A DNA stretch of 64,000 bases, from NCBI RefSeq assembly GCF_003432385.1, contig NZ_CP031841.1, positions 1,961,579 to 2,025,578 on the forward strand, in the 5' to 3' direction. This stretch comes from Breoghania sp. L-A4 (GTDB taxonomy: Bacteria; Pseudomonadota; Alphaproteobacteria; Rhizobiales; Stappiaceae). This document shows, piece after piece, positions 1 to 19,259 of this stretch; the first letter of the stretch is position 1; each line of letters starts with the position of its first letter. Below the pieces are notes generated by a model, which worked only from the letters and a program-made list of their open reading frames with translations, was not told the origin of the DNA and did not search any database. The position numbers and the translations under genes are program-made.

Positions 1-3000
1 ACCTTGAGCTCAACCTCGACCCCGCGGAAACCCCAGGCTTTGCCCTCTTCCCCGGTGTTTTTTCATAGGTGAGCTGCACCAGCTCGTATTTTTTCGCTTT
101 CAGCTCCAGCACGCCCTGAAAGCTGATATCGAGGCTGCCCGAAGGCGATGACGGGAAGGCCATCCCCAGCTCGAGCGCAAATTTGCCCTTGTTGAAGCCG
201 AAGGCGAGGGCAAGCTCCATCTTGAAGTCTTTGAGCAAAGAGCCCAGCGACCCGAAGCTACCCATATCGAGATCGAATGTTAGGAAAAATTCCGTATCAA
301 TATTGAATTCATTCTTCAGAGCTATCGAGATGAAATCTATATCGCCCAGCTTAAGCCCGGAGGACAACACTCCAAAGCCCTTCCATTTCAGCGGGAAGGA
401 ACTGAAGAAACCGCCGCCGGGTTTCTTGTCGCCGCGCAGGAAATCAAAACGGAGCGCACCGGGGCTGAAGTCGAGGTCAAGGCTCCGCACGTCGCCCAAA
501 GCGTCGATAAGGAACGTCATGTCGATCGCCAGATCGCCAAACTTTACCTTTTCGATGTCGAAGAAGTCGAAGTTGCTTCCCATGCCGAGATCGAAGGGTT
601 TGAAGTCCATATCGCCATCGATGAGGAACTTACCCTCGACCTTGTCAACAGACTTACCATTCACCTCGGTTGGGACAACCTTGGCCGAATAGCCGATCTC
701 GTCGATCCTGAGTGATTTGATAAGCGGAAAGTCGTCCTGCATCCTTATTTCGAGATCATCCGTGCTCAGGAATTTGTAGACCTCGACACTGGACCCGTTC
801 TCGGTGCGGCGCTCATAGCTGCCTTCGAGCGTGACGACATTGGTCTCGACAATTGTGCCGTTCTTGGTGAGCGTCAGCCCGTCATCGCCAAAAAGCTGAC
901 CGACCCGCAACTCCAGCTCACAATCGAAATCCTGCAGCTTGCCCACAGCAAAGCCCGCAGCGAGTTTCTTGACGTTGAATTCATATTGCTTGGACTCGTC
1001 AGGCTCGAGCGGTTTGCTTTCATAAGTCACAGCCGCAAACGGTTTGGCCTTCGGATTGCTACCGCTATCGCGTACGCGCTGAACGGGAAAACCGATGTGA
1101 TCGGCGCGAAACTCGTCCTTGCCGATCCCCCCATCAGGCCCTTGATCTGGGCCGGCAGGTTCGACGGGTTGATCGACATGTCGAGCACCAGTACGCCATT
1201 CCAATTGGGATCGTCGAGAGCAGTGCGCAGCGCCTCATAGCGCGGATCGTCCTTGAACGCCTCGTCTTTGGTGATTTTTTTATGCAGGTCGCGGACACGT
1301 TTTGCCGCGCCAGCGGCATCGGTGACATAGCGCTTGCCCGACCAGAGCTTGAGGTTGATCGTCTCGACCAATTGCCGGATCGAAAGCCCCTCATAGCCTT
1401 TGAACAACACCAACGCATCCTTGGGCGCGGCTTTGGCAACCTCGGCCGCTGTGCCTGCCTTGGTAAGGAGCTTGGCCTCAAACCCCAGCCCGAGATCGCG
1501 ATCTTACCCTTGATCTGGAACTCGGGGTCTTGCTGACCCAAAGCCGCCTCGCGATCTAGCGCCATGAAAAGTTGGTTGCGCAGGATCGCTGCTGTGAGGT
1601 CTCCGGGTACTAATCCCGGCACGTCGAGCTCGTCCGGTTTGCCCGCCAGGGAGAGCCGACCCTCGATCGTTTTATCCCATGCGCCGCGAGCAAAAACGAT
1701 CTCGCGGATATTGCCCTCGGTGTCTTCATAGATTTCAAAGCCCGCAGTGGTCACTCGAGGTTTGAGCAGCGTCGGAGACAACGTGCGGGCTAAATTTTTT
1801 TGTGTCGCGGACTTGGCTGAGACTTCGGGCATGGCTGCGCGCCGCCGAGCGTTCGACAACTGGGCCGGTACCGGTACGTCCCCGGCAGGCGGCATGCCCG
1901 TCGGTGCGGGCAGGATCGGAACGAAGCCCAGATCACCGCCCAGCTTGGCCCCGGGCAAGGGCCGCGGATCCGGTCTGCGCAGCCGCACGCCAGAGGTGTT
2001 TGTTTGATCATGTTCAAACTGTCTAAGCGCTCTCGCTTCGGAGATGAAGTCCGCTGCCGGTCCTAAGGGCGCAAGCTCTAGCTTCGCCCAGAGTGTTGCA
2101 TCCTCAAATGGCCGGTCTGCACCAATCAGTACACCGTCGCCCGGTCCGCTTTCGTCATCGGGTTTCACGTGTCCGCCGCCAAGCCGGAAGATCAGACGTC
2201 TTGGTGTGCCCTTTTGCATCGGGCCCATGCGCAGGAACTCATGCGGTGTGTCCCCACGGCAAACCCGGTGTCATTGGTTGCAACCGCCGTGACTTGTTCT
2301 GGCATCGCCAACGTGAGGTCAAACGGCCCCTCCGGCATTAGCGAGGCTTCAAAGCTTCTGACACTTCCGGCAAGGTCCTGCTCGTCGCGGTTTAGCACGA
2401 GCCGAAAGCGCGGCGGTTCAGGTACTGTTCCGGCCGCTGGCACGGTCAGGAGCACATCGTGACCATGCACCCCCTTAAACCGAGACCTTAGCGTTATGCT
2501 TGCATGCGGCACGAAATGCATACGTTCCCAGTTTTCGCCATCCATCGGGTCAAACACCACGGTGGCCTGCAGTCGAGTCCCCGCGGGCTGATTGCTTTTG
2601 TGAAATAGCGGCCTTTCCTCACGCAGCGCCTTAACGGTCGCCCCCACTGGCTGCGTGCCTTCCGCAGTGACTACTGAGCGAATGCCGAATTCCTGGAGCC
2701 GCTCAAAACGCAAGCCAACATTGAAGACGAAACACCCTCCCGAAGGCCGCTGGCCGTCAAAAGCAAAGTTGGAATGACCGTACGCACCCCGGTACCTTCA
2801 AAGACGTGTCTTTGCCCGGGCTTTGGTTGCAGGAACAGCCCATTTCTGTCGCAGAGCAAATCCGATTGTCCAATAGAAATCGCGGGCAGACTCTTGATCT
2901 TTTGACCGGTGAGAGAGGGGAAGTCAGGACGGAGGGTCGTTAGGAAGCTGTTGCCGGGGATTGTGCCGATTGCTGCGCCCGTACTGATGACACCGCCGCC

Positions 3001-3249
3001 ATAGGGTCCCCGGCTGAAGACGATCCGGCGGTCCCGGGTCAGCAAGAGCGGGGCCACTTGGCTCAACGCCGGGGCCAGCGGCCCATGCGACCAGACCAGC
3101 CAACGTCCGGCCTCGGTAACTTTGCCTTCAAGTGTCAGCGACGTCAGGCCGGGATCGCTCTCAGGCATGAAGACAAGCCCGGTGTCGTCGTTGACAGATG
3201 CGGTGGCATACAGCCCCTCGGCAATGCGTTGGAGGATCAGTTCGTCCAT
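1..3249 (-). CDS. Very large beta-rich protein of unknown function, partial, frame-interrupted
   Basis: I do not recognise this protein. It starts at the ATG at 3249 (MDELILQRIAEGLYATASV), overlapping the stop of the upstream OmpA-domain gene, so the two are probably translationally coupled. Reading through to the left edge gives about 1,080 residues without an end. No signal peptide or membrane segment is visible. The second half (below about position 1100) is rich in alternating hydrophobic/charged strands with Gly and Asp, for example FDLDMGSFGSLGSLLKDFKM, which suggests beta-helix or beta-sandwich structure. The frame breaks five times, each repaired by adding one base, near 2775, 2253 (C4), 1489 (CCC), 1130 (C6) and 58 (T6). 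Each repair restores sensible protein on both sides, so I treat it as one gene. Decay of an accessory gene is the alternative. Confidence 0.6.
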
Positions 3250-5549
3250 GAAAATCTCTCCATATGAACCAGGGGAAGCGCCAGAAGCCGGCAATCATCT
3301 GAACTATAGACCGCGCGCGAATTGTCTCCGTAGGTCGGCAACGTGATCCGTGCGGCCAGTCGGCTTCCCGGCGGTAAGCGCTGGTCCGCGGCCCCGGTCC
3401 CTACGACAAAGCAGGGGGCCATAACCTCCGGTGGCAACAGAGAGCCAACGCTGGTTCCCAGGGGCACGCGGCGAGGCTCGCCATTGACCTCCACGTCTAT
3501 CAGAAGCGAGGCCCGCATCGGTTGCGTGAAGAGACCGCAGAGCACCCGTGCCCGTGGCCCTCCGTTCGGATCATCCCGCGAACCCCAAGCACAGGCTGAA
3601 GTTAGAACGGCATCACCCAAGTCTGTTTCGATGGATCCGAACAATCGACCATCCCGGTCTTGTGCTAAAAATTCGGAGATATCGTCGTGGGAGCGCGCCG
3701 CGACGATTAACGTGTCCCGGGTGGGACGGAGCGCCTCCGTGGCGATGAAGGGCCTTGGAATGACGCGAAGGTAATCAGGATTGTTCGAAGGATCAGTCGG
3801 TCGCCCGTTGGGCGGTATGACGTAAGCCAGCCGCCCCGAGAGCAACAGTTCAAGTGCTGCCGGATCTCCAATCCCGAAGGTGCCATCGTCGGCTCTCTGT
3901 GACAGGTTGGCCAAAGCGGGGGCATCCCACCAGCGCAGGGCAAGGCCGGGATCAAGTGTGACGGCGTTCTGTCCGAAAAGTCCGCTGAGCACAGGGACTG
4001 CATCCTGTGATGCCCCCACAAAAGGCCGTGTAGGTGCGGAATATAGGGGGAAAACGATCTCCGAGGTTAAGTCGGAAAAGTCCTGTCGTCCAATAGTTGA
4101 GCCAGGAATTTCAGGTAATTGGTCCCGTCCGGTCAGTAGCCGTAGATGCATGCCAGGCCGGAGCGCAAACATGCCAGTAGGTGCGTGATAATCATGAGCC
4201 CATGCCAGCAAACCTGCTCCGTCTCGCGGCAATAAGTCCAAGGCTTGCAACAAAAGGCTATCTAAAAGAGATTTGCGATCCTGCTGACTGCCGACGTCGT
4301 CAGGATCGAGCCCGAGACAGCTTCGCAAAAGGCGTCGCTGCGTGTCGTTAAGCAGGGTCTCGTCTTCGTCGGCGATCAAGGCGTCAAGGAAATGCGGTAG
4401 TCGCACGCGCACCCGCCAAGGGTCCGGAACGCCCGCCGCTGCATCCTGTCGGCCTTCTTGCCCGTCCTGTACGATCGCGGTGGCTAGAAGCAGTTCGATC
4501 TGCCCCCGCAGCGGCCCGCTCGCGGATCTGACATCGGGCCGCGCCCGCAATCGCACCAGCAACCGATTGCCCAATGCTGAAGAGTTTATCGCGGATACAA
4601 CAAATCCGGGTTCTGTGTCCCACGCAACAGGAGCAGAATTAGGAATTTCCAGTTGGATCCTCTGCCAACCCGTATCGAGCCACAGACGGCCTCCGTCCGC
4701 GTCTTGTTCTGCCAAGCTGCAAACCTCGATGGCATCCCCAGTGGGATCAGAAACGGGTACGATCACCGGATGTAACGGCGTTGTGCCCGCCGGATAATGG
4801 CGAAGCACCGCGAAGTGATCCCGCAATGCTTCTGAATCCGCATTTGGGATGTTGCCGTCTTGACCTGCCAGTGCGGAACTCAACACTTCGTATCGAGGCC
4901 CAGCAAAAACTGGCGAGGCAAGACGCACTTCTAGTCGTCGGTCATTTCGAACACGCGCTTCTCCGCCCGCCTGAGAAAGGCGCAACATCTGAAGGCGTGG
5001 TGCGCAAGGCTCTGTTTCGATGGACTCCTCATCCCCGTCCGGTGGACCGCAGGCCCATGGCTCGGCCTCTCCTCGGCCTGCAACGTCGACCGTCACCCGT
5101 TCGTTGAAATCATCTACCTCTTCCTGCAGGTATGTCCTTGCTGCTCGTGCCCTCTCCAGAGATCGCAAATTGTTCGTAAAGTCGTTGTCCACGGAGTCCG
5201 CATGACCAATAATAATAAGCTCGATCGAACCGAGCCTGTCGGCACGGACAGCGAGGCGCCCAAGCGCTCTCAAACACGCTCTCCGGTCAGCATCCAGATT
5301 GTTGCTTGCAAAATCGAATGTGAGCACTGGTTCGTTGCCTGCGCCAATAGTCCCATTCAACTCTGCAATGGACATCACTAGCGCATCCACGGGAGGAACC
5401 GTTGCTGCGGTGCTGTTCAAGTCGCTTTCGTTTTGGGCATCGCGGTCTAGGGTGGACGTCACTGGGCAGAGGGCCAGCGCGGCCGAAGAAGAAAAAGTGA
5501 TCCATATGCCAACTATTAGCAATAATCGCGCCGTTGAATGTGGAAACAT
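3237..5549 (-). CDS. Secreted OmpA-domain protein
   Basis: About 770 residues. I prefer the ATG at 5549 over the GTG two codons earlier because a GGGGG tract lies just upstream. An N-terminal signal peptide (LLLIVGIWITFSSSAALA) is followed by a linker and an OmpA-like peptidoglycan-associating domain around residues 85-215. The domain is recognised by the strand DFASNNLD, then LIIIGHADSVDN, the NNLRSLERARAARTYL helix and VAGRGEAEPW. The remaining 550 residues are unfamiliar and probably beta-rich. OmpA domains bind peptidoglycan from the periplasm. Its stop overlaps the start of the giant downstream gene, so the pair probably forms one operon with a shared envelope role. That role is inferred. 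Confidence 0.75.
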   Translation of the reverse strand: MFPHSTARLLLIVGIWITFSSSAALALCPVTSTLDRDAQNESDLNSTAATVPPVDALVMSIAELNGTIGAGNEPVLTFDFASNNLDADRRACLRALGRLAVRADRLGSIELIIIGHADSVDNDFTNNLRSLERARAARTYLQEEVDDFNERVTVDVAGRGEAEPWACGPPDGDEESIETEPCAPRLQMLRLSQAGGEARVRNDRRLEVRLASPVFAGPRYEVLSSALAGQDGNIPNADSEALRDHFAVLRHYPAGTTPLHPVIVPVSDPTGDAIEVCSLAEQDADGGRLWLDTGWQRIQLEIPNSAPVAWDTEPGFVVSAINSSALGNRLLVRLRARPDVRSASGPLRGQIELLLATAIVQDGQEGRQDAAAGVPDPWRVRVRLPHFLDALIADEDETLLNDTQRRLLRSCLGLDPDDVGSQQDRKSLLDSLLLQALDLLPRDGAGLLAWAHDYHAPTGMFALRPGMHLRLLTGRDQLPEIPGSTIGRQDFSDLTSEIVFPLYSAPTRPFVGASQDAVPVLSGLFGQNAVTLDPGLALRWWDAPALANLSQRADDGTFGIGDPAALELLLSGRLAYVIPPNGRPTDPSNNPDYLRVIPRPFIATEALRPTRDTLIVAARSHDDISEFLAQDRDGRLFGSIETDLGDAVLTSACAWGSRDDPNGGPRARVLCGLFTQPMRASLLIDVEVNGEPRRVPLGTSVGSLLPPEVMAPCFVVGTGAADQRLPPGSRLAARITLPTYGDNSRAVYSSDDCRLLALPLVHMERFSWTN

Positions 5550-5739
5550 TTTCACCCCCCGAGACAGCTGAATTACTCTGTGACTTGACCATCACTCCGG
5601 ACGCGTTGCGGTTTCTTTCGCACTTGGTCTGGAGAAAGTGTTCGCGATAAATCGCGCAAGGCTAAGGGTCGCTCGCTGTATATCGTTTCTACAAACCCAT
5701 TAGTGGAGCAGAATTAATTTTGGCTTGCCCAAGTTGTCC

Positions 5740-6264
5740 TTACCACTGATAGCAATGCTGTGACCAATTTGGATAATGCCGCGTCCCAAAATACAATTTC
5801 TTGTCGCTGTCATATATTATTACGTGGCCACCCCAATAGACTGCCTCATCAAGCTGAAACACAGTCCAAATTCCTTCCGAATTAGGCAGAGACATCTTAG
5901 TTTTAGTTGCCATTTCCTTGAACCAGCACCACATATCTCGCGCCCGAATGGGCCTCTTGGCCGATGTTCCACAACGCGCATTGATGCAATCTGCGGGAGC
6001 ATTGAGGTTGCTATAGCCAGCTCTCAAAAATGCGTCTGATAGGAAATGTGCGCAGTTGTTCTCGTAAGTGTCTGCACCGTCGCACGCGTCGTGGTAAAGC
6101 GAGGCGGCGCCGGCGATGCTTTTGACATTGGTCAAAGACTCTCGGAGAAGCTCTAGATCACGTTGGATCGCTTGTCTCGGATCCCCAGACGCTGGTGCAG
6201 GTGGCGGCGGAGGAGCAATATTCTCCATGTCTTCTCTGGAAGATGCGGGGTCGAAATCCGGCAT
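5740..6264 (-). CDS. NlpC/P60-like (papain-fold) protein with Pro-rich N-terminus
   Basis: 174 residues from the ATG at 6264, chosen because GGAGG sits five bases upstream; a more upstream ATG at 6306 lacks a site. Residues 13-24 form a proline run (APPPPPAPASGDP). The C-terminal half resembles an NlpC/P60 or related amidase fold: a candidate catalytic Cys in ENNCAHFLSDAFLRAGY and a His in WGGHVIIYDSDKKLYFG, the order and spacing expected for Cys/His cell-wall hydrolases. No signal peptide or membrane segment is seen, so if it cuts peptidoglycan it must be exported another way or be an injected effector. Those roles are inference. It sits in the AT-richer patch beside an IS remnant. Confidence 0.5.
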   Translation of the reverse strand: MPDFDPASSREDMENIAPPPPPAPASGDPRQAIQRDLELLRESLTNVKSIAGAASLYHDACDGADTYENNCAHFLSDAFLRAGYSNLNAPADCINARCGTSAKRPIRARDMWCWFKEMATKTKMSLPNSEGIWTVFQLDEAVYWGGHVIIYDSDKKLYFGTRHYPNWSQHCYQW

Positions 6265-6419
6265 GTGTCCTCCACTTCGAGCCTTCTTGCCGTTGCTTGA
6301 CCTCACAATTATGCTCTAGAATAGCTTTTTCTCCAAGTAATAAATTCACTCATCTTAGCGGGCTTCGCTTCTTGCTCTCGAACAGACCCGCGCATACTCT
6401 GGACAAAAGATCTACCCGG

Positions 6420-6659
6420 TGCGAATCTAGCCAAGCCGATGGGAAAACCTTCGAAACTATTGAAATCATAGCGATAATTATCACCGTGATCGGAATGATT
6501 GTAGGGGTTCCGGTCCTTTTTCCGTATTTCAAAGCTGCATGGCTGCGGATCGCAGGAAGCTCAAGCTTTTCGATCCTCGGCGAGACAGCTGTCAAAAACC
6601 TAAACCGTCAGAGTCGGTCTGGAAAGTTCTTCGTTTTGAACAGAGCCTTCGCAGCATGA
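6420..6659 (+). other. Possible membrane-protein fragment running into the IS remnant
   Basis: An open frame here encodes a convincing single hydrophobic segment (IEIIAIIITVIGMIVGVPVL) followed by a basic stretch, then enters the antisense of the transposase remnant and ends. No start codon with a ribosome site is visible, and its N-terminal side is antisense to the NlpC-like gene. It may be the stump of a small membrane protein cut by the insertion. It may equally be chance. Confidence 0.2.
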
Positions 6660-7010
6660 GGCGGATAGAGGCGAGTTTGCTGAATGCGATCGCGTTGCGC
6701 GACAGGTTCTCGAAATCCTTGGCCAGCCTGCGGCATCGCCCCAGCCATGCGAAAGTTCGTTCGACCACCCAGCGTCTAGGCAGAACCTCAAAACCCTTGG
6801 CCGTGTCGGATCGCTTGACGATCTCGGTCGTCCGGGCATGGCTTTCTTCTGACCCTTTGCGAAGACCGGGCCCTGATAGCCGCCGTCGGCAAAGAGTTTC
6901 TTCAAGAACGGATAGCGCCCGAACAGCGTCTTCAGGACCAGCACGCCGCCATCACGGCCCTGGATGTCGGCCGGATGAAGCGGATTTGGCGTGACGACAT
7001 CTGTCGATGG
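6592..7010 (-). pseudogene. IS5-family transposase remnant (C-terminal half)
   Basis: Conceptual translation gives the C-terminal DDE part of an IS5-family transposase. The first frame contains [17 protein letters not shown] and [14 protein letters not shown]. After a one-base shift near 6850 follow [37 protein letters not shown] and [12 protein letters not shown], ending at 6592. The N-terminal half is missing and similarity fades near 7010, so it cannot be active. A palindrome, GACAGCTGTC, lies at the distal end and may be left over from the terminal inverted repeat. It marks the edge of the AT-richer cassette and supports acquisition by transfer. Confidence 0.8.
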
Positions 7011-7029
7011 ACCTCGACGAAAGATGGCT

Positions 7030-7055
7030 TGAAACTTTCTCGCCGTCAGATAATC
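7030..7055 (+). promoter_or_regulatory. Weak candidate promoter for the peptide/oxygenase cassette
   Basis: TTGAAA at 7030 and GATAAT at 7050 resemble sigma70 boxes, but the spacing of 14 is short. Reading the second box as TAATCT gives a better spacing of 16 with a poorer match. The site lies directly upstream of the strong ribosome site AAGGAGG of the 41-residue ORF. Confidence 0.25.
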
Positions 7056-7083
7056 TCTCTCCGTACATCAAGGAGGTTGAGTG

Positions 7084-7209
7084 ATGAAAAAGGACACTCA
7101 AAAACCGATCAAGTTTACGGTTGGCAATGGGAACCAATCAGACATTTGTGGGGGAGTTAAACCTGCGCAAGTTGCTCAAGATCAAAAATCTGATAAAAAA
7201 GAAAAATAG
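7084..7209 (+). CDS. 41-residue hydrophilic peptide, first gene of the oxygenase cassette
   Basis: A short ORF with an excellent ribosome site (AAGGAGG, seven bases before the ATG). It begins MKKDTQKPIKFTVGNGNQ, contains SDICGGVKPAQ and ends in a Lys/Asp-rich tail. There is no signal peptide or membrane segment. The stop is six bases before, and in the same frame as, the TTG start of the first oxygenase, so the two are probably coupled. One explanation is a ribosomal precursor peptide modified by the two downstream 2OG-Fe(II) oxygenases, with one Cys, a Gly-Gly, and several Asn, Pro and Lys residues that could be hydroxylated. A plain leader peptide is the alternative. I recognise no family. 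Confidence 0.55.
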   Translation: MKKDTQKPIKFTVGNGNQSDICGGVKPAQVAQDQKSDKKEK

Positions 7210-7215
7210 AATCTT

Positions 7216-7839
7216 TTGCAGCTTTCCAGGAGCCGGACGGACTTACAGGTCACTACGCTTTGCCAACTGGAAGTTTGGCATAGCGATGGTAGTGATTTAT
7301 TTGCTCACCACCCCGATATGCTCAGAGATATATCGGGACTAATTTCGTCCGGCCGCATTCATCATTCAGCGTACGGGAAGCAAACAGAAGCAATTCTCCA
7401 GAGCTTGCAGGATGAACACTGGCAGAGCTTTTTCCGATTTGTGCATGTTGAGATGGCCAAGGTAATTGACACTAAGGGTCTGCAACTTGATTCGGGTGAG
7501 TTTCACTTCAAGTCGTGGGCGTCTGTTGTAACGGGCACTGAAACGCCGCAAAAGATAATATCGCAGTCGCTTCATAGCCATAACACAGCTCTCCTTTCTG
7601 CTGTATACTTTCTTTCAGAGGCAAACGATGAGGAAACAGGTACATACTTTGTTAATCCACTTTCGATGATTTATGGATCTGGCCCCTATGGGACAATTGT
7701 TCCAGCGCGAGAAGGCCGATTAATAATCTTTAACAGCGGAGTAGTGCACGCCCCGTCTATCTCACTCAGTAGTCCCATCTGCGGGGAAAGAGTTGTTCTC
7801 GCCGTTGACGCCCATTACTCACCCGAGGTCGTAGAGTAG
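7216..7839 (+). CDS. Putative 2OG-Fe(II) oxygenase (first of two)
   Basis: 207 residues from a TTG; no good ribosome site is visible, consistent with coupling to the 41-residue ORF just upstream. It matches the layout of the PF13759/TIGR02466-type 2-oxoglutarate, Fe(II)-dependent oxygenases. SLHSHNTALLSAVYFLSEA is the HxH plus YYL-like core, followed by GTYFVNPLS, then REGRLIIFNSGVVHAPS (distal iron His) and an Arg in GERVVLAVDA that would bind 2-oxoglutarate. The Asp usual in the central 'f-DP' motif is Asn, as in the second oxygenase. The substrate is unknown; the neighbouring peptide is the obvious candidate (inference). The gene ends directly against the next ATG. Confidence 0.65.
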   Translation: MQLSRSRTDLQVTTLCQLEVWHSDGSDLFAHHPDMLRDISGLISSGRIHHSAYGKQTEAILQSLQDEHWQSFFRFVHVEMAKVIDTKGLQLDSGEFHFKSWASVVTGTETPQKIISQSLHSHNTALLSAVYFLSEANDEETGTYFVNPLSMIYGSGPYGTIVPAREGRLIIFNSGVVHAPSISLSSPICGERVVLAVDAHYSPEVVE

Positions 7840-8823
7840 ATGGATCTCCAAACAGTACCTGACAGTTTCATGGGAAGGGTCCTAAATGAATTTGGAGTCC
7901 AGTGGACTCACCTTTTTATTGTTTCAGGTGTAGCGCTTACAGCGTTTGGGCTCGATACTGTGCTTGATCCGAGCGTGTGGATATTCGGCATTATTGGGTC
8001 CTTCGTTTTAGTTTACGTCTTTCGAGAGTATATAAGCCAAAATTTCCCGCTGACTTTTTTTGTGTCTGCATTAATATTTGGCTGCTTAGTGATGCTCGTT
8101 ACTCCAGTTGGCAGTTTGCTTCCATCCGATCTTGGAGCTACTGTTCGTACTGATAAGCGCTGGTTTACGCTATATTGCTCTATGGCATTCGGTATGCCGC
8201 TGGGTGTGTGCTTAATCAGCTACAATAAGCGGCCCGAAAGTCTACTACTTGCGCTTCCTGAATCCATAATTCAGAGCGCTAAATCACAGATATTTCACTC
8301 CCCTTTTCTGATTGATAAGGCAACTTATCTCATCGAGTTGTCAGAGGACGGCAGTGATGGCGTGCTTTTCAGTTTTGAACTGCACTTTAAGATCGTAAAT
8401 CGTTCCAAAAAGATTGCGCGATATCAAGATATCTTTGATCCTTCCGGCGAACAGTCTTGCTTCAAAAGCGCTAGCATAGGTGAAGAGGTTATTGACGTCT
8501 TAGATCCAGATTACTCGCACGGGCGGGGGATTGTTATAAGCAAAGAGGTCGATGGGCGTTCGACTTTCGATGTAAAAGTGGCAGCGGAAACCCACTACCC
8601 TCGTGTGGGTTCGGAGTTAATTGGTTGCTATTTTCCAGCGCGAGAATTGGAGGTGCGTGTTACATGCCCACCTTCTCTAATTAATGTCTCAGTACAATCT
8701 ATGCTTATGGAGAAGATACCAGTAAGCCGAATGCATAATGGGGATTTACTGGTGAGTTACAACAAAGGCATTTTGCCATTTCAGGGCGTTCGCTTGCACT
8801 GGTCTAGGAAGGCAGAGGAATGA
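7840..8823 (+). CDS. Membrane protein with C-terminal beta-rich domain, unknown
   Basis: 327 residues. The ATG immediately follows the stop of the first oxygenase, and its own stop overlaps the next ATG by four bases (ATGA), so it belongs to the same operon. Residues 20-130 hold about four hydrophobic segments (for example WIFGIIGSFVLVYVF and FFVSALIFGCLVMLV). Residues 145-327 are a soluble, strand-rich domain with no motif I know. It could anchor the oxygenases, export the peptide or act as an effector, but nothing in the sequence decides this. Codon use is AT-richer than in flanking core genes. Confidence 0.6.
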   Translation: MDLQTVPDSFMGRVLNEFGVQWTHLFIVSGVALTAFGLDTVLDPSVWIFGIIGSFVLVYVFREYISQNFPLTFFVSALIFGCLVMLVTPVGSLLPSDLGATVRTDKRWFTLYCSMAFGMPLGVCLISYNKRPESLLLALPESIIQSAKSQIFHSPFLIDKATYLIELSEDGSDGVLFSFELHFKIVNRSKKIARYQDIFDPSGEQSCFKSASIGEEVIDVLDPDYSHGRGIVISKEVDGRSTFDVKVAAETHYPRVGSELIGCYFPARELEVRVTCPPSLINVSVQSMLMEKIPVSRMHNGDLLVSYNKGILPFQGVRLHWSRKAEE

Positions 8824-9502
8824 CGATAAGTTTGAAAAAGGATAATCTTTTCTCGATACCATTTTGGACATGTGATCTTACCGACGTGGCAGAGTATCAT
8901 CACGAAATGGTCAGGGACGTGGAGTCACTTTTGGATAATGCAAAGGAGACGCGTGTGCACTTAGCTGATCAAACAATGGAGGATCCGTTTCGCCTTGATT
9001 CACGCGGCTGGAGCTTGTTGGAGGCTCGGTGCCAACAAGTATTTCAAGAGTTGGTGGAAGAAAACTTCCAACGATGGTACTCAGGGGAGTTCCACTGGAG
9101 GCGATGGGCTGTCAGACTTGGACGCCAATCAAATCAGGAAAAAGAGCGTCTTTTGCGAGAGTCGGTACACAACCACTACCCTGCGTTTCTGTCTTCAATA
9201 TATTATTTGTCTGTTCCGAGCGATCTTATTGACAATGAGAAGGGGGCACCCAATTCAGAAATCCTTTTGCGTTTGTTAGCGAGAAGATATTTCCACGATC
9301 AACGGTTGTGCATGCGAAGCCGGGCCGTCTAGTTGTTTTTCCGTCCTTCATTGATCACACGGCGGTGCCGGTAGAGTGGACTGCAGCTGATGAAAGTCGG
9401 GTGGCAGTAGTGAGTGATCTATTCTATGTGAGCGGATACGGAGATTACGAAGAAGATTCAGGGAATGTGATCCGAGTAGGGCGACAGCGCGGCCGAGATT
9501 GA
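8820..9502 (+). CDS. Putative 2OG-Fe(II) oxygenase (second of two), frame-interrupted
   Basis: Two overlapping frames form one protein. The first runs from MTISLKKDNLFSIPFW to the core SVHNHYPAFLSSIYYLSVPS. One base is missing in a run of five G at 9241-9247; restoring it continues as GGTQFRNPFAFVSEKIFP, then KPGRLVVFPSFIDHTAVPV and ESRVAVVSDLF. This is the same PF13759/TIGR02466-like arrangement as the first oxygenase: HxH, Asn-Pro instead of Asp-Pro, distal His, and Arg for 2-oxoglutarate. The N-termini of the two enzymes also align loosely, suggesting divergent paralogues with different substrates or sites. After 9475 another frame stays open to about 9620 (AEIDILNNLELLRK onward), so an acidic C-terminal extension is possible if a further indel exists. 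Confidence 0.6.
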
Positions 9503-9726
9503 TATTCTGAATAATCTGGAGTTGTTGAGAAAGACTGATCTTGATGCCAGTGAATTAGATCAGGAACAAGAGCTTGAATACTTTGGAGAAGGTTCGACGT
9601 CAGGCCCATTCCCTCCGCCATCCATTTCATATCGTGACGCTTCGCTCCTCGCTTTGATGGGGCGCGCCGAAACGGCGGTTGGTCTCGCGCTGACGGACAG
9701 GTGTCGCGCGGGCCGGATGCGCGTGC

Positions 9727-11809: not shown

Positions 11810-14171
11810 TCACTCCCTCGTCTTGAGAACCGCAACCAGATCGAAGCGCCGGATGTGACGTCTCGCGAGCAACGCCGACAAGCCGGCGGCCAAGAAGACC
11901 GCGGCGCTGGCCAAGGCATAGGTGCTGCGGTCGAGCGCCAGGGGCATGCGCATCAGATCCGCATCCATAGCGTTCTTCATGATCCACGCGATCCCATATC
12001 CAGCAGCCCATCCGAGTGGCTGCGCGAGCACGAGCAGAATGACGAGCTCGCCAGCCAGGACCCAGAAAACCTCCCCTGGCCGAAGCCGAGCACACGCAGC
12101 GTCGCAAGTTCGTTGGTGCGTTCCGACAGCGAGATCCGAACGGCATTGTAGACCATGCCGAAGGCGATCGTGCCGGCAAGACCGGTATAGATCGACGCCA
12201 TGGCGGTAACGATGATGACGAGTGCGGCTTGGAAATTCGCCAAGGAAATTGCCTGCAGCGCAATGCCGCCGAACGCCGGTGTCGCCTTTACCTCGTCATA
12301 GAGGGCGTCGAGCCTTGCCGGGTCGATGCGCAACTCGGTGCGGTCGACGCGTGGCGCTTCGTGGAGGAGACGGGACAGTGCCGAGATCTCCATCGTCGCC
12401 TGCAGGCCAATGTAATCCTCCGTCAGGATCGTCACGGGCAGCGAAACGGTCCGGCGCGTTTGACCCAGCATGTCTATCTCGACATTGTCTCCGATCCCGA
12501 CTCCAAGAGTTCTCGCCAACCAGGAGTTGATCGCGATGCCCCTCTCAGGCGGCATGACGCGGCGCAGGGATCTGTCGACGATCCGGTTGAGCTTTGCGTC
12601 AGCCGGTCGGCCATAGAGTGTCACCCGGCGCTCCGTGGCGCCGTTACGGATCCGAGCGGGCACCATCCGGGTCGGCTCCGCCGCCTGAACTCCCGGCATC
12701 CGCTTTGCCAAACCGATCACTGCGAGCGGCTGCGGCTTGACGAAATCGATGGTGGCATCCTGGCGTTCCGAGAGCATGTATTTGACTTCGACCAGATGCT
12801 CCATCGAGTCCGCCAGATAGAGCGACGCGATCAGGATCGCCAAACTCATGGCAAGGCCGATCATGGTCATGAACGAGCGCAGACGGTTATGGACTGCGCT
12901 GCGAAAGGCCATTCTTGTCAGCGGCGAGAGCGCAGCGGCAAGCCTGGCGAGACCGCTTTCGCTGCCGTGGTAACGGGGCGGCGCCAAGGGGCGCATTGCG
13001 ACGGCGGGCGAGAGTGCCACGACGCGCGACACCGCCTGTATCGCGCCGGTCATGCCGGCCAGCGTCGGCAGCAGGGCGGCGAGGAAGTAGATATCCGCAG
13101 ATGGCGCGAAGACAAGCAGCGGAAACCGGAAATAATCCGCATACAGTCTGGTGACGTATTGGCCGAGCAGAATACCGGCAGCAGATCCCGCAAGAAATCC
13201 CGCAAGGCATATGATCGCCACGAACTTCACGTAATGCCCGACGACGGTGGCATTGCCGTAACCGAACGCCTTCAGCAGGCCGATCTGACCCCGTTCCAAA
13301 AGGACGATTCTGCCGAGCGTGAGATGAACGAGGAAAAAGGCGATGCCAAAAAATACAGGAGGTAGCGTCAGACTCATGCTGCGCAGCATGTCGAGCCCAT
13401 GATTGAGGAAGGCGTGTGAAAACTGGTCGCTTCGACCATGCGCCGCCTGACCGCCATAACGCGCCAGTAGGGTGTCGATGCGCTTCAGCACGCCGACTTC
13501 GTTGGCGTCGCGCGTCGTGCGGACAAGCGCCGACGTGAATGCGCCTTGGAGATCGTAGATCGCTGCAAGCGCGCTCTCGTTCATCCACACGATTCCAAAG
13601 CGACGGTCGTCAGGCATGATATCGCCCGGTCCGGCAACATAGACGAATTCGGGGAATAGGCGGTTCCAACGATCTGCAACCGGTATTTGCGACCGTTGAG
13701 GGTGGCCGCGAAGCTGTCGCCCGGGCGAAAGCCATGCGCTTCGGCGAAGGCTTGATTGACGACCACTTCGTCCGTGGCTCCCCCGCCAGGCATGCGGCCG
13801 AGCCTTTGATACGGCCGGTTTAGCGCGGGCATGGTGCCGTCCGGGAGCGAGACGAAGTGCCCCGTGGCTGGTTCGCGCATCCCGTCGATGTCGAGAAGCG
13901 CAGACTTTACGATCCGGGTTTCGACGGTCGCGACGCCGGGAATCCTGGCAATCCGGTCTGCAAGCCTGCGTGGCGCGCGCTGCACGCTCGCGAACACATC
14001 CGCAAAGTGCTGGCGCTGGTAGTAGGTGATCCGGGTTTCTTCGAGTGAACGATAAGACCCGATGGCCAGGAGCACGGTGGCAACACCTGCAGCCATAACC
14101 AGCGAGATCGCGAGCGCCTGGCCCCACAGGCGCCTCAAGTCCCGAAAGAGCTTCTTGTCGAGCGGGCTCAT
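11810..14171 (-). CDS. FtsX-type ABC permease, frame-interrupted twice
   Basis: Three frames assemble into one permease of about 785 residues. It starts MSPLDKKLFRDLRRLWGQAL with one membrane helix, followed by a periplasmic domain. Near 13651 one G is missing (GGGG on the plus strand); adding it continues as PEFVYVAGPGDIMPDD. The middle part contains the first FtsX core (FFGIAFFLVHLTLGRIVLLE and following helices) and the second periplasmic domain. Near 12072 one C is missing; adding it joins RVLGFGQGEVFWVLAGELV to the last helices and the stop. Two FtsX domains in one chain fit lipoprotein- or MacB-like permeases. It heads the exporter operon with the HlyD adaptor and ATPase. Confidence 0.75.
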
Positions 14172-14489
14172 TCTAACAATTTACAAGGCAATTCCTGATG
14201 TTTGCACTGACATGCATCAATGCTCCATTGAATCGCATTTCTGCAGTTTAAAGACTTGGGGTTGGAGATCGCCTGATATCAAGCGCAAGCCTCCATCGTG
14301 CCCCAAATGTCTTGAAATTCAGCCTTTCGAGCCGCGCGCAATGGCGTGAGCGCTTGGCGCGCGCCTTTGCACTCAGCCGAGCAGCGCCAGGGCCGCGCCG
14401 TCGCGCGCCGAGTTCGAACGCTCCGCCCTTTCGCGCCCCGTGCCGGGCCCCGATATCACGCCGGGTGACAAACCGGGCCACCGCACCGA
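14172..14489. other. Intergenic region after the sugar permease
   Basis: No gene is supported here. It lies between the start of the FtsX permease and the end of the sugar permease, both on the minus strand. It must hold the exporter operon promoter (none recognisable) and contains the left copy of a 26-bp repeat. Confidence 0.5.
14375..14400. repeat. 26-bp direct repeat, left copy
   Basis: These 26 bases, starting AGCCGAGCAGCGCC, are identical to 20587-20612, where they are the coding end of chrA. The two copies are in the same orientation and bracket the sugar transporter and its regulator. Read on the minus strand, the left copy would encode the same GAALALLG tail followed by a stop. This is the pattern left when DNA integrates at the 3' end of a gene. 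No integrase is present. Confidence 0.6.
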
Positions 14490-15492: not shown

Positions 15493-16515
15493 CTACCGAT
15501 ACAGATCAAGCTTGTTCTTGATGCGCAGGACGCGCAGTGATCCGATGCAGACCGCGCCCAGCAGGACAAGGCCCACGAACAGCGGCTGGAGAACCGGATT
15601 GATGTCGAAAACAATCAGCAGATCGCCGACGGTTCGCATCACGAATGCCCCGAAAATGGAACCGACGGCGCTGCCCACGCCGCCAAACAGCGATGTGCCG
15701 CCGATCACCACGGCGCCGATCGAGTTGAGCGTGTAGTCGTTGGCGATTGATACCTTGGCCGCGCCTGAGTAGGTGACCGCGGTCAGAAGCAGCCCGCCTA
15801 TGGATGCCATCATGCCGGATAGCGCGTAGGCAAGCACCTTGGCGCGTTGCACCGGAACTCCGGACATGTAGGCGGCTTGTTCGGCCGTGCCGATGGCGAA
15901 GGCCGCCCGGCCCAGTACGGAGCGACGGTAGGGTATCCAAACGAGCAGGACGACGAGCAGCAGGAGAACCGCCGAATGAGGCACCGCATAGCTTGAGCGC
16001 GTCATGAAATCGGCCAGTTCAAAATTCACCGTTCCGCCCGGCTGCGGACGCAGTGCCAGCGCGATGCCGAAATAGACCGCCCCCGTTGCGAGGGTGACAA
16101 TGAGCGGTTGCAGGCGACCGTAGACGATGATGATCCCGTTCGTCGCGCCGCACAGCAGGCCGACGAGCAGCACGGCAATGATTCCGAAGGCGGTGGAAAC
16201 AGGATCGCCCACGACGATGCTGGAGGCCAGGCAATTGGAGAGAACGAAGATCGCGCCCACCGACAGATCAAGCCCGCCGGTCAGCACGGGCAGGGTCTGC
16301 GCCATGGCAACGAGCGCAAGCAGGGCGCCCTTGTTGGAGGCGGTATTGATGACATTGGCGGTGAGACCAACCGGCTGCTTCCAGCCATAGACCGCGAACA
16401 TGACCGCGAAGATCGCAACCGCCAGCAGGATGCCGCGCTGGGCGGCCGACAGACGCGGTCTGTGCCGAAGGCGCTGGCCGCGCTCCGGTCGCGTTGCTTC
16501 GACGGGCGCGCTCAT
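15493..16515 (-). CDS. Sugar ABC transporter permease (RbsC-like), second subunit
   Basis: 340 residues with an N-terminal cytoplasmic basic stretch, then about nine membrane helices. Family signatures include LTGGLDLSVGAIFVLSN, GRLQPLIVTLATGAVYFGIA and GAVVIGGTSLFGGVGSAVG. Its start overlaps the end of the ATPase gene (GTGA/ATG region at 16512-16515), which shows close co-translation. It pairs with the downstream permease in a ribose/CUT2-type importer. Confidence 0.85.
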   Translation of the reverse strand: MSAPVEATRPERGQRLRHRPRLSAAQRGILLAVAIFAVMFAVYGWKQPVGLTANVINTASNKGALLALVAMAQTLPVLTGGLDLSVGAIFVLSNCLASSIVVGDPVSTAFGIIAVLLVGLLCGATNGIIIVYGRLQPLIVTLATGAVYFGIALALRPQPGGTVNFELADFMTRSSYAVPHSAVLLLLVVLLVWIPYRRSVLGRAAFAIGTAEQAAYMSGVPVQRAKVLAYALSGMMASIGGLLLTAVTYSGAAKVSIANDYTLNSIGAVVIGGTSLFGGVGSAVGSIFGAFVMRTVGDLLIVFDINPVLQPLFVGLVLLGAVCIGSLRVLRIKNKLDLYR

Positions 16516-18077
16516 GCGGTCACTTCCTTCGCGCGTGCGGCCAATGCCGCTTCATCGACACCGGCGGGCAGGTTGAGCGCCGCGGAGACAAGATTGGTTT
16601 CATTGAGTTCATCGCCCGCCAATGTGCGCACCACGGTGCCTCCATACATCACCAGAACCCGATCGCAACATCCGATCAGCTCGTCATAATCGGTTGAATA
16701 CAAAAGGATCGCCGCGCCCTCAGAGGCCAGATTCTGCAAGAGCTGATAGATCTCCTGCTTGGTGCCGACGTCGATGCCCCGGGTGGGATCGTTGAGCAGG
16801 ATGATGCGCGGCCTTGTCATCAGCCACTTTCCAATCACCACTTTCTGCTGATTGCCTCCCGACAATGCGCCGACCGGCCCGTCGATGCCATCCGACCTGA
16901 TCTTGAGGAGACCCATGATCTGGTCGATCGCCCGTTCCTCCGCCTTGAGATCAATGATGCCCGCGCGGCTGACCTTCTCGACCGCGGCGAACGACAGGTT
17001 TTCCCGAACCGCCATCGACAACATCAGCCCTTCCGCCTTGCGATCTTCGGGGATGAGCGCCATGCCGATCTCGTCGGATTTTGCCTTTTTCGGGCTCGAA
17101 AGGCTGACGGGTTTGCCTGCGATTTCGACCGTGCCGGTCGTGCCGATGAGCGTTCCGAACAGGCCGAGAAGCAACTGGCGCTGCCCTTGGCCATCGAGGC
17201 CGCCCAAGCCGATGATCTCGCCGGGACGGATTTCGAGATCGATGTTGTTCAGTTCTCCTTGCCACGAAAAATCGCTGACCTTGAGAACAGGCGCGGCAAC
17301 CGGTTTTTTCCCCGCCTTGGGCGGGAACACACTTTCGTACTCCCGGCCGATCATCATCTCGACGATGGCATTGTCTGATTTCGTGCCCGCCTTGAACGTT
17401 TCGACCTTCTGGCCGTTGCGGTAAACCGTGCAGACATCGGCGAGTTCGGCGATTTCGTTCATCCTGTGCGAAATGTATATGATCGACATCCCTTCTTTGC
17501 GAAGCCTGTGCAGCATGGCGAAGACCTTCCCGACATCCCGCGCGGTGAGCGCTGACGTGGCCTCATCGAGGATGAGGATCTTCGGATCGCGCGCGAGCGC
17601 CTTGGCGATCTCCACCATCTGGCGCCGCGACAGCGGCAGCTCGCGGATGGTGGAGGAGGGGTTGATCGCTTCGCCGCCGACGCGTGCCAGCGCCTTTTCG
17701 GCCATCTTTCGCTGAGCCCGATAGTCGATCATGCCGAAGCGCTGGGGCGGGCGGGTGATGCCGATATTGTCGGCGACGGTCAGGTCAGGAAGCAGCGAGA
17801 GCTCCTGAAAGATACAGGCGATGCCGGCAGCGTTCGCCTCCGTCGGGTTTGCGAAGTGCACCGGGTGGCCGTCGAGTTCGATGGTCCCTGAATCCGGCTG
17901 GACGACTCCCGACAGCACCTTGATCAGTGTCGATTTTCCGGCGCCGTTTTCCCCCAGAAGAGCGTGGATAGTGCCCCGGGTCGCTTCGAAGTTGACATTT
18001 TCAAGCGCGCGAACGCCGCCGTAATGTTTGCTGATGCCCGACATGCGCAGCAGCGGGGGAGCGCCTGAGTCCAACAT
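16512..18077 (-). CDS. Sugar ABC transporter double ATPase (RbsA/MglA-like)
   Basis: 521 residues from the ATG at 18077 (MLDSGAPPLLRMSGISKHYG); the longer frame upstream has no support. It contains two ATPase halves. The first has Walker A GENGAGKST, signature-like LPLSRRQMVEIAKAL and Walker B ILILDEATSAL. The second has GLGGLDGQGQRQ in place of a normal Walker A, the signature LSGGNQQKVVIGKWL and a degenerate Walker B ILLNDPTRGIDVG. This asymmetry is normal for CUT2 importers. It lies about 70 bases after the binding-protein gene. Confidence 0.88.
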   Translation of the reverse strand: MLDSGAPPLLRMSGISKHYGGVRALENVNFEATRGTIHALLGENGAGKSTLIKVLSGVVQPDSGTIELDGHPVHFANPTEANAAGIACIFQELSLLPDLTVADNIGITRPPQRFGMIDYRAQRKMAEKALARVGGEAINPSSTIRELPLSRRQMVEIAKALARDPKILILDEATSALTARDVGKVFAMLHRLRKEGMSIIYISHRMNEIAELADVCTVYRNGQKVETFKAGTKSDNAIVEMMIGREYESVFPPKAGKKPVAAPVLKVSDFSWQGELNNIDLEIRPGEIIGLGGLDGQGQRQLLLGLFGTLIGTTGTVEIAGKPVSLSSPKKAKSDEIGMALIPEDRKAEGLMLSMAVRENLSFAAVEKVSRAGIIDLKAEERAIDQIMGLLKIRSDGIDGPVGALSGGNQQKVVIGKWLMTRPRIILLNDPTRGIDVGTKQEIYQLLQNLASEGAAILLYSTDYDELIGCCDRVLVMYGGTVVRTLAGDELNETNLVSAALNLPAGVDEAALAARAKEVTA

Positions 18078-18147
18078 TTTCGAGATCCCATGAAAAAGGG
18101 CGCCGCCGGCAAGCATGTCACCGGCAGCGCGTGTGGCAAGTCGGATG

Positions 18148-19259
18148 TCAGTTGTTTTCCCCGCTCTGCGCGGCAATCTCGTCGGCCGTGAAGCCAATGT
18201 CGCAGGCTTCGAAGTTGTTGCCCGCAAAGAAGCTTCCCGGCAGTTCCGGAAACACCTCGACGCCTTCCTCGAACGGCGAATAGGAGATTGAGGTCGGCAG
18301 CGCGATCTGTTGCGGAATGGTTTCACCCTGAAGCGCCGCGATCGCGGTCTTGATGGTCACCGACGACTGAGCCGGTCCGGTGCCGCCGGATTGGCAGACC
18401 AGGCCCTCGTTGTTGCAGAGTTGGCGGAAGGCATTCTCCGTCTCGCCGGTAATCGGCACATGCGGGTGACCCGCGTCGAGCAGAGCCATCGTTGCGCCCT
18501 GCGTGCCGCCCTGCACATAAACGCCGTCGAACACGCCGCCGGCGGCAACCGCGTCAGCGGTGACCTTCTGCGCGTCCCCCGGCGCCCAGTTGCCCACCAC
18601 GTCGGTAACCTCCACATCACGGCCGGATGCGGCAATGACCTCTTGGAAACCGTCGTTGCGCGCGATGTCCACGGGTTGGCCCGCCGGGCCTCGCACATGC
18701 AGGAACTTCGCGGGTTGGCGTCGGTTTTCGACAGCAGGAACTCCGCGGCCGCCTTGCCAAGGCCCTTCTGGTCGACATTGATGGCGATCTGGTTCGGATC
18801 GTCGATCACGTTGTCAAACGACAGCACCACCACATCGGCGTTGTTGGCCTTGCGCACCACGGAGCCGAAGGCGGCGGTGTTGTTGGCGTTGACGATAATG
18901 GCGTCGAAACCTTGATCGATGAAGTTGTTGGCTGCGGCGATCTGGGCGGCAATGTCTTCGCCGACCGAGACAACCTTGAACTCCTCCAGGTTCTTTGCCA
19001 CATCCGGCTGCTCGGCATAGGCCTTGGCAACGGCGATCATCTGCACGCGCCAGTCGTTGGCGATGAAGCCGTTGACCAGGGCGACCTTGTACGGCCCCTC
19101 CTTGGCCGACCACTTGAAGTAGGTCGTGTCGCTGGACACCGGCGCGAAGCAAGCCGGATCGGCGCCCGGACCGGATACGATCTCGGGGCCGGCGAACGCA
19201 AACTGCGTCGAGATGGCAAGCACAGAGATTGCCGTCGACCATTTCAGCATGGATTTCAT
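18148..19259 (-). CDS. Periplasmic sugar-binding protein, frame-interrupted
   Basis: About 370 residues in two frames. GGAGG lies a few bases before the ATG at 19259. The signal peptide is STAISVLAISTQFAFAGP. The N-lobe has KVALVNGFIANDWRVQM, GFDAIIVNANNTAAFGS and VVVLSFDNVIDDPNQ, typical of ribose/autoinducer-type periplasmic binding proteins. Near 18711 one base is lost from GGG (plus strand); restoring it gives NPAKFLHVRGPAGQPVDIA and the C-lobe (FDGVYVQGGTQGATMALLDA, ending SGENN). It delivers sugar to the two permeases. It is the first gene of the importer and sits behind the GntR regulator. Confidence 0.8.

Follow-up and report, generated by a model that had tools for sequence, protein, structure and literature searches.

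Does a short open reading frame (ORF), followed by a 2-oxoglutarate (2OG)-Fe(II) oxygenase gene, a membrane protein gene and a second oxygenase gene, form a working peptide-modification system in Breoghania sp. L-A4? The four genes lie in a 64,000-nucleotide stretch of contig NZ_CP031841.1 (positions 1,961,579 to 2,025,578; hereafter the window), which is part of a 5.03-Mb single-contig genome. A first-pass annotation, made from the letters alone, had read them as a cassette in which the oxygenases might modify the peptide and the membrane protein might serve export, anchoring or immunity. The gene order is real, and the unit does not look intact. With a probability of roughly 45%, we read the locus as the eroding remnant of a horizontally acquired operon whose ancestor plausibly hydroxylated its own short peptide. 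That ancestor would have encoded the 41-residue peptide, a pair of paralogous PF13759-like oxygenases, a membrane protein of about four helices and probably one or more upstream genes that are now cut off. The oxygenases would most likely have acted as hydroxylases on side chains of the co-translated peptide, and export or immunity may have been the task of the membrane protein. The alternatives weighed below overlap with this reading and with each other, and their odds do not sum to 1.

The frame of the second oxygenase and the left edge

The second oxygenase had been drawn as one gene running to 9502, which did not hold. Frame 0 reaches a stop at 9330-9332, and one has to change to the -1 frame to read the conserved C-terminal half. 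The frame 0 translation matches PF13759 weakly to residue 136 of 142, past a run of five G its residues no longer align with those of oxygenase 1, and it is the -1 frame that carries F-x-N-P, G-R-L-V-V-F-P-S-x-x-x-H and R-V. Beyond the end of that frame, a tail in the third frame (codon score 0.15 against -0.441 and -0.43 in the other frames) may be a further piece of the oxygenase 2 C terminus; a Pfam search with the tail gave no match.

Frame damage is also seen in a neighbouring MacB/FtsX-like permease gene (11813-14180, minus strand), which spans three frames with breaks near 13629-13659 and 12052-12073, and whose homologues, the genome's second copy (L049) and those of two relatives (L047, L048), are single open frames. 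General indel errors in the assembly are argued against by six open frames of 611-1223 codons elsewhere in the window, picked by codon score, one of which (16512-18326) is an ABC transporter by Pfam.

These breaks bear on the reading in which the cassette is intact and working in the living strain, the break in oxygenase 2 being an assembly error or a site of recoding. Its position at a five-G run would suit such a case, as would the weak PF13759 matches of both halves with their core residues kept, and the tight coupling of the genes. Against it stand the second apparent frame change downstream, the two breaks in the FtsX gene and a left edge that falls at a truncated IS5 element. Recoding by a canonical -1 programmed frameshift is itself unlikely, as the G run, judged by eye from its codons, forms no canonical slippery heptamer. 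We consider an intact, working cassette distinctly unlikely.

The IS5 remnant noticed earlier at the border of the unit is there. Its truncation at 6979 comes from alignment to the IS5 copy of Rhizobium oryzihabitans p7; the fragment is 82.1-85.8% identical to the four best plasmid records, and of 332 matching plasmid records 207 are named Sinorhizobium, Rhizobium, Agrobacterium, Bradyrhizobium or Mesorhizobium. The open frame between the fragment and the peptide scores 0.081 for codon use against -0.252 and -0.303 in the other frames, which is suggestive of the end of a truncated upstream gene, at a length of only 29 codons. The front of the operon seems, from this layout, to have been cut off at the IS5 fragment.

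Decay would then be recorded in the broken oxygenase 2, its third-frame tail, the IS5 element truncated at 6979 with the open frame beside it, and the FtsX permease with its two frame breaks. Since the frame of oxygenase 2 is interrupted and a truncated IS5 element forms the left edge, whole products can be expected at most from the genes of the peptide, oxygenase 1 and the membrane protein. With oxygenase 2 and the permease broken and the operon front seemingly cut, the unit probably does not function as a system here.

Table 1. Features of the locus (positions in the window)
Feature	Position	Strand	Remarks
IS5-family transposase fragment	6610-6979	-	Keeps its outer end (GAGTCGGTC...); truncated at 6979, the start of the cassette
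Open frame, 29 codons	6995-7084	+	TGA (7082-7084) overlaps the peptide ATG (TGATG)
AGGAGG ribosome-binding site of the peptide ORF	7071-7076	+	7 nt 5' of the ATG
Peptide ORF, 41 codons	7084-7209	+	41 residues; Lys/Gln-rich, hydrophilic, one Cys, one Gly-Gly
Oxygenase 1, 207 codons	7216-7839	+	Divergent PF13759-like 2OG-Fe(II) oxygenase; TTG start, core motifs kept
Membrane protein, 327 codons	7840-8823	+	327 residues; about four N-terminal hydrophobic segments, C-terminal part without them
Oxygenase 2, N-terminal part, 170 codons	8820-9332	+	Frame 0; homologous to about 9245, then out of frame
Run of five G	9242-9246	+	At or near the homologous frame change from 0 to -1
Oxygenase 2, conserved C-terminal half	9251-9502	+	-1 frame
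Acidic, coding-like tail	9504-9585	+	Third frame; possibly further oxygenase 2 C terminus
Dispersed element, 36 bp	9585-9620	+	Ends in CTCCGCCA; right border of the AT-rich patch

The short frame and the oxygenase pair

The close packing of the genes can be read directly from the sequence and agrees with the first-pass annotation: six bases separate the peptide TAG from the oxygenase 1 TTG, the membrane ORF begins at the base directly after the oxygenase 1 stop, and the end of that ORF overlaps the oxygenase 2 start in ATGA (8820-8823). An origin of the genes in one operon would be consistent with this tight coupling, with the paralogy of the oxygenases and with the codon use of the peptide. 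Promoter-like sites (2 against 3.4) and terminator-like sites (5 against 3.2, standard deviation 2.0) show no clear excess over shuffles, and a search for border repeats of the cassette returned nothing convincing.

The 41-residue hydrophilic ORF and its strong ribosome site were likewise confirmed (42 codons if a GTG start is used). When 2000 first-order Markov sequences were made from the same 2.6 kb, 2.05% of them held an ORF of at least 35 codons behind AGGAGG-N4-9-ATG; the whole window has one. An independent codon model, trained on the oxygenases only, gave the peptide -0.136 and its shifted frames -0.316 and -0.365; under the same model, seven true-frame chunks of the membrane gene scored -0.09 to 0.08 and shifted chunks -0.20 to -0.37. 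A second model, trained on all cassette genes, gave -0.046 for the peptide, -0.233 and -0.334 for its shifts and -0.10 to -0.12 for the opposite strand. The codon use of the peptide thus appears nearer to coding, being closer to the true frames of the cassette than to shifted ones, at limited power.

The peptide and oxygenase 1 lie in one frame, parted by TAG AAT CTT, and this raises a different account, in which the 41-residue frame once extended oxygenase 1 at its N terminus, was cut away by the TAG at 7207-7209, and there is no peptide gene at all. The common frame with so little between, the strong ribosome site at the peptide where none is seen 5' of the oxygenase 1 TTG, and the further breaks nearby in oxygenase 2 and the permease would all fit. 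However, a shared frame has a 1-in-3 chance, re-initiation 6 nt past a stop codon is ordinary, and oxygenase 1 counted from its TTG matches the length of its paralogue, with the first H of the HxH motif at residue 120 against 117 in oxygenase 2. It is already about 12 residues longer than seven of the ten class members listed, in which HxH stands at 106-108 counted from the first Met of the open frame, an unverified start (L019, L024, L025, L026, L027, L031, L036); of the remaining three, HxH is at 125 in L020 and 140 in L022, and L029 has no such motif. Because oxygenase 1 is of about normal length from its own TTG, the peptide appears not to belong to the enzyme. A severed extension is, in our judgement, unlikely.

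Both oxygenases had been assigned a shared core like that of PF13759 and TIGR02466, an assignment that stood, weakly, for the first family and not for the second. Oxygenase 1 scores 21.2 bits against PF13759 and the two oxygenase 2 pieces, each alone, 17.8 and 21.6 bits, all below the gathering score of 27 bits; no NCBIfam match at E <= 1 to TIGR02466 was obtained for the oxygenase pieces, the presence of that model in release 20.0 being unchecked. The residues HxH, GRL-x-x-F-x-S-x-x-x-H and R, which we take to bind iron and 2OG, are kept in both oxygenases in an alignment that took 19 of 24 class loci and in which 15 rows were usable (L020, L025, L029 and L031 aligned elsewhere and carry no weight). 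The Asn-Pro reported for both enzymes is present, as an F-x-N-P motif in each; F-x-D-P occurs in only 4 of the 15 usable class rows (L019, L024, L027, L036). The two oxygenases are 24% identical over the first part and 30% over the second, with SGEFH, WA, HxH and LS in common, and the first-part match within the genome has an E value of 3.7e-10; on this evidence they are divergent paralogues.

An oxygenase profile run against 385 genomes of the class at E <= 0.01 found the locus itself and 24 others, at 17-29 bits, 23 of the 24 matches starting no earlier than position 105 of the 199 in the profile and the other at 58. These PF13759 (2OG-FeII_Oxy_5)-like proteins, stand-alone and long, largely share W-A, H-x-H, L-S-x-x-Y, GRL-x-x-F-x-S-x-x-x-H and R with the window pair, but differ in that the full-length oxygenase profile barely reaches them. 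Their occurrence in 24 of 384 other class genomes, 13 of the 24 in open frames of 426-868 codons (neighbouring short ORFs unchecked), would suit oxygenases that act elsewhere, on a small molecule or on a protein of the host or of a phage, with the short ORF as a leader or regulatory peptide or a spurious frame. The best phage family of oxygenase 1 points the same way: PHROG 81, '2OG-Fe(II) oxygenase' (E 2.8e-8), belongs to the category 'moron, auxiliary metabolic gene and host takeover'. A spurious frame is opposed, on the other hand, by the ribosome site of the short ORF and its codon use, and we hold another substrate to be somewhat unlikely.

Relatives and comparable systems

The preferred reading, a decayed operon of foreign origin, would be reflected in a low G+C content and in the rarity of its genes among relatives. 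G+C is 43-50% over 7001-9500 and 59-67% on the right side, so the AT-rich patch of the first-pass annotation stands out from its right flank; it is less distinct on the left, where 5501-6500, beyond the IS5 fragment, is low too (47-50%). The membrane protein is missing from 396 other genomes of the order, and the oxygenase profile found only its own locus in 87 genomes of the family (86 others without it), as did oxygenase 1 as a single sequence in 398 genomes of the phylum. Among three genomes of the genus, the sole match outside the genome itself was 57 bases inside the IS5 part.

Wider searches added no relative. In 84,980 species genomes, a pattern scan for oxygenase 1 gave 44 matches and an oxygenase motif scan (A5) 41, none confirmed; at the sensitivity of these two pattern scans, this branch of oxygenases is without a close relative there. 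On viral contigs, oxygenase 1 alone or aligned with oxygenase 2 pieces gave 0, 52, 33 and 88 pattern matches and the membrane protein 4, none confirmed. Searches with tblastn found nothing in phages for oxygenase 1 and the membrane protein, and nothing in plasmids for these two, the peptide and piece 2 of oxygenase 2; piece 1 of oxygenase 2 gave one weak plasmid match, under reverse transcriptase (24.4%, E 6e-3), which was rejected. With blastn, the segment 7050-9700 matched plasmids only in the right-border element (37 bases, 2 records). Six proteins scanned against the PADLOC defence families had no match at E <= 1.

When 228 other genomes of the order were searched with the peptide, two had matches, with per-genome E values of 0.043 and 0.085; these were rejected, such values being expected by chance over that many genomes. 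The better one is 50% over 31 residues and lies in a 64-codon ORF between regulator-like and binding-protein-like genes, and no oxygenase-like ORF was seen beside either match (3-kb loci; both by eye). No related cassette in which the peptide might be conserved turned up in these searches.

The membrane protein has about four hydrophobic segments within residues 24-127 and no family in profile searches of Pfam, NCBIfam, PHROGs and PADLOC. Among 384 other class genomes, 5 gave matches to it (E 3.8e-4 to 0.0096), all set aside as they cover the hydrophobic residues 17-126 only; one of the five, inspected by eye, resembles a LysE-type transporter. Sequence searches of the PDB gave chance-like results throughout: the membrane protein had five matches at E of about 0.4, oxygenase 1 matched ten antibody chains (E 0.028-0.95) and query A2 had a single match (E 0.4).

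Hydroxylases of the 2OG type, also in pairs, act on ribosomal peptides, as described in two sources (PMC5408092, PMC13097080). CinX is a 2OG/Fe(II) hydroxylase encoded beside the cinnamycin precursor peptide gene and required for hydroxylation of D15 (PMC5408092), the likeness to the present locus being one of description. The cin cluster adds a lanthionine synthetase, an ABC transporter and regulators (PMC5408092), whereas the cassette proteins match no such family. SmaO and SmaX form an oxygenase pair that acts sequentially on one peptide, and CorC is a divergent 2OG enzyme (PF13640) with homologues seen only in one type of peptide cluster (PMC13097080); the likeness, of paired oxygenases and of a cluster-restricted divergent enzyme, is again one of description. 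Graspetide clusters have a graspetide synthetase (PMC13097080), but the cassette proteins match none. They also lack matches to lanthionine synthetase, ATP-grasp, radical SAM and peptidase families, the remainder of the window having been scanned in part. Judged by title, none of the papers found to name PF13759 or TIGR02466 (including PMC10598087) concerns a peptide pathway, and the titles and abstract openings searched describe no comparable gene set.

Several points weigh against the decayed-operon reading. The putative role of the peptide as substrate rests on its proximity, and a peptide-bearing relative was not found in the order genomes, the genus or the plasmids searched. The peptide score of -0.136 is slightly below what true-frame chunks of the membrane gene reach (-0.09 to 0.08). 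For the membrane protein, which is without a family, a role in export or immunity is guesswork. AlphaFold models, made for oxygenase 1 and the membrane protein (mean predicted local distance difference test scores 35.5 and 36.6), are unusable and give no support, and the frame breaks could stem from local errors in the assembly. These data neither support nor refute the modified-peptide idea, which is possible for an intact ancestor.

Surroundings and meaning of the locus

At the right border, the dispersed element occurs in 5 of 60 relatives' genomes, with three copies in one, and on Aminobacter and Shinella records in the plasmid blastn search; it looks like an attachment site or the end of a mobile element. 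A resemblance to a tRNA 3' end, noted by eye, was dropped after ARAGORN detected no tRNA in 8 loci and an Rfam search of 7 loci gave no match.

Left of the IS5 fragment, the lower-G+C stretch holds a 188-residue ORF (5740-6306, minus strand) with no Pfam, NCBIfam, PHROGs or PADLOC match at E <= 1. Beyond it lie a 772-residue protein (3237-5555, minus strand), with an OmpA-like domain near its N terminus and no other Pfam match, and a coding-looking stretch (1-3294, minus strand) whose long pieces in differing frames suggest more breaks left of the cassette.

A bolder version of the peptide idea, which we think improbable, is that a self-contained system of the ribosomally synthesized and post-translationally modified peptide type, absent from the collections searched, exists intact in a relative or in the living strain, where the two oxygenases would hydroxylate the 41-residue Lys-rich peptide and the four-helix membrane protein would handle it. 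A link between PF13759 and a peptide gene is undescribed in the titles and abstract openings of the literature searched.

As matters stand, the locus is mainly an example of how a first-pass reading can mistake a gene with a broken frame for a functional partner. Discovery of an intact relative would connect PF13759-type oxygenases with a peptide gene and give the family a testable substrate.

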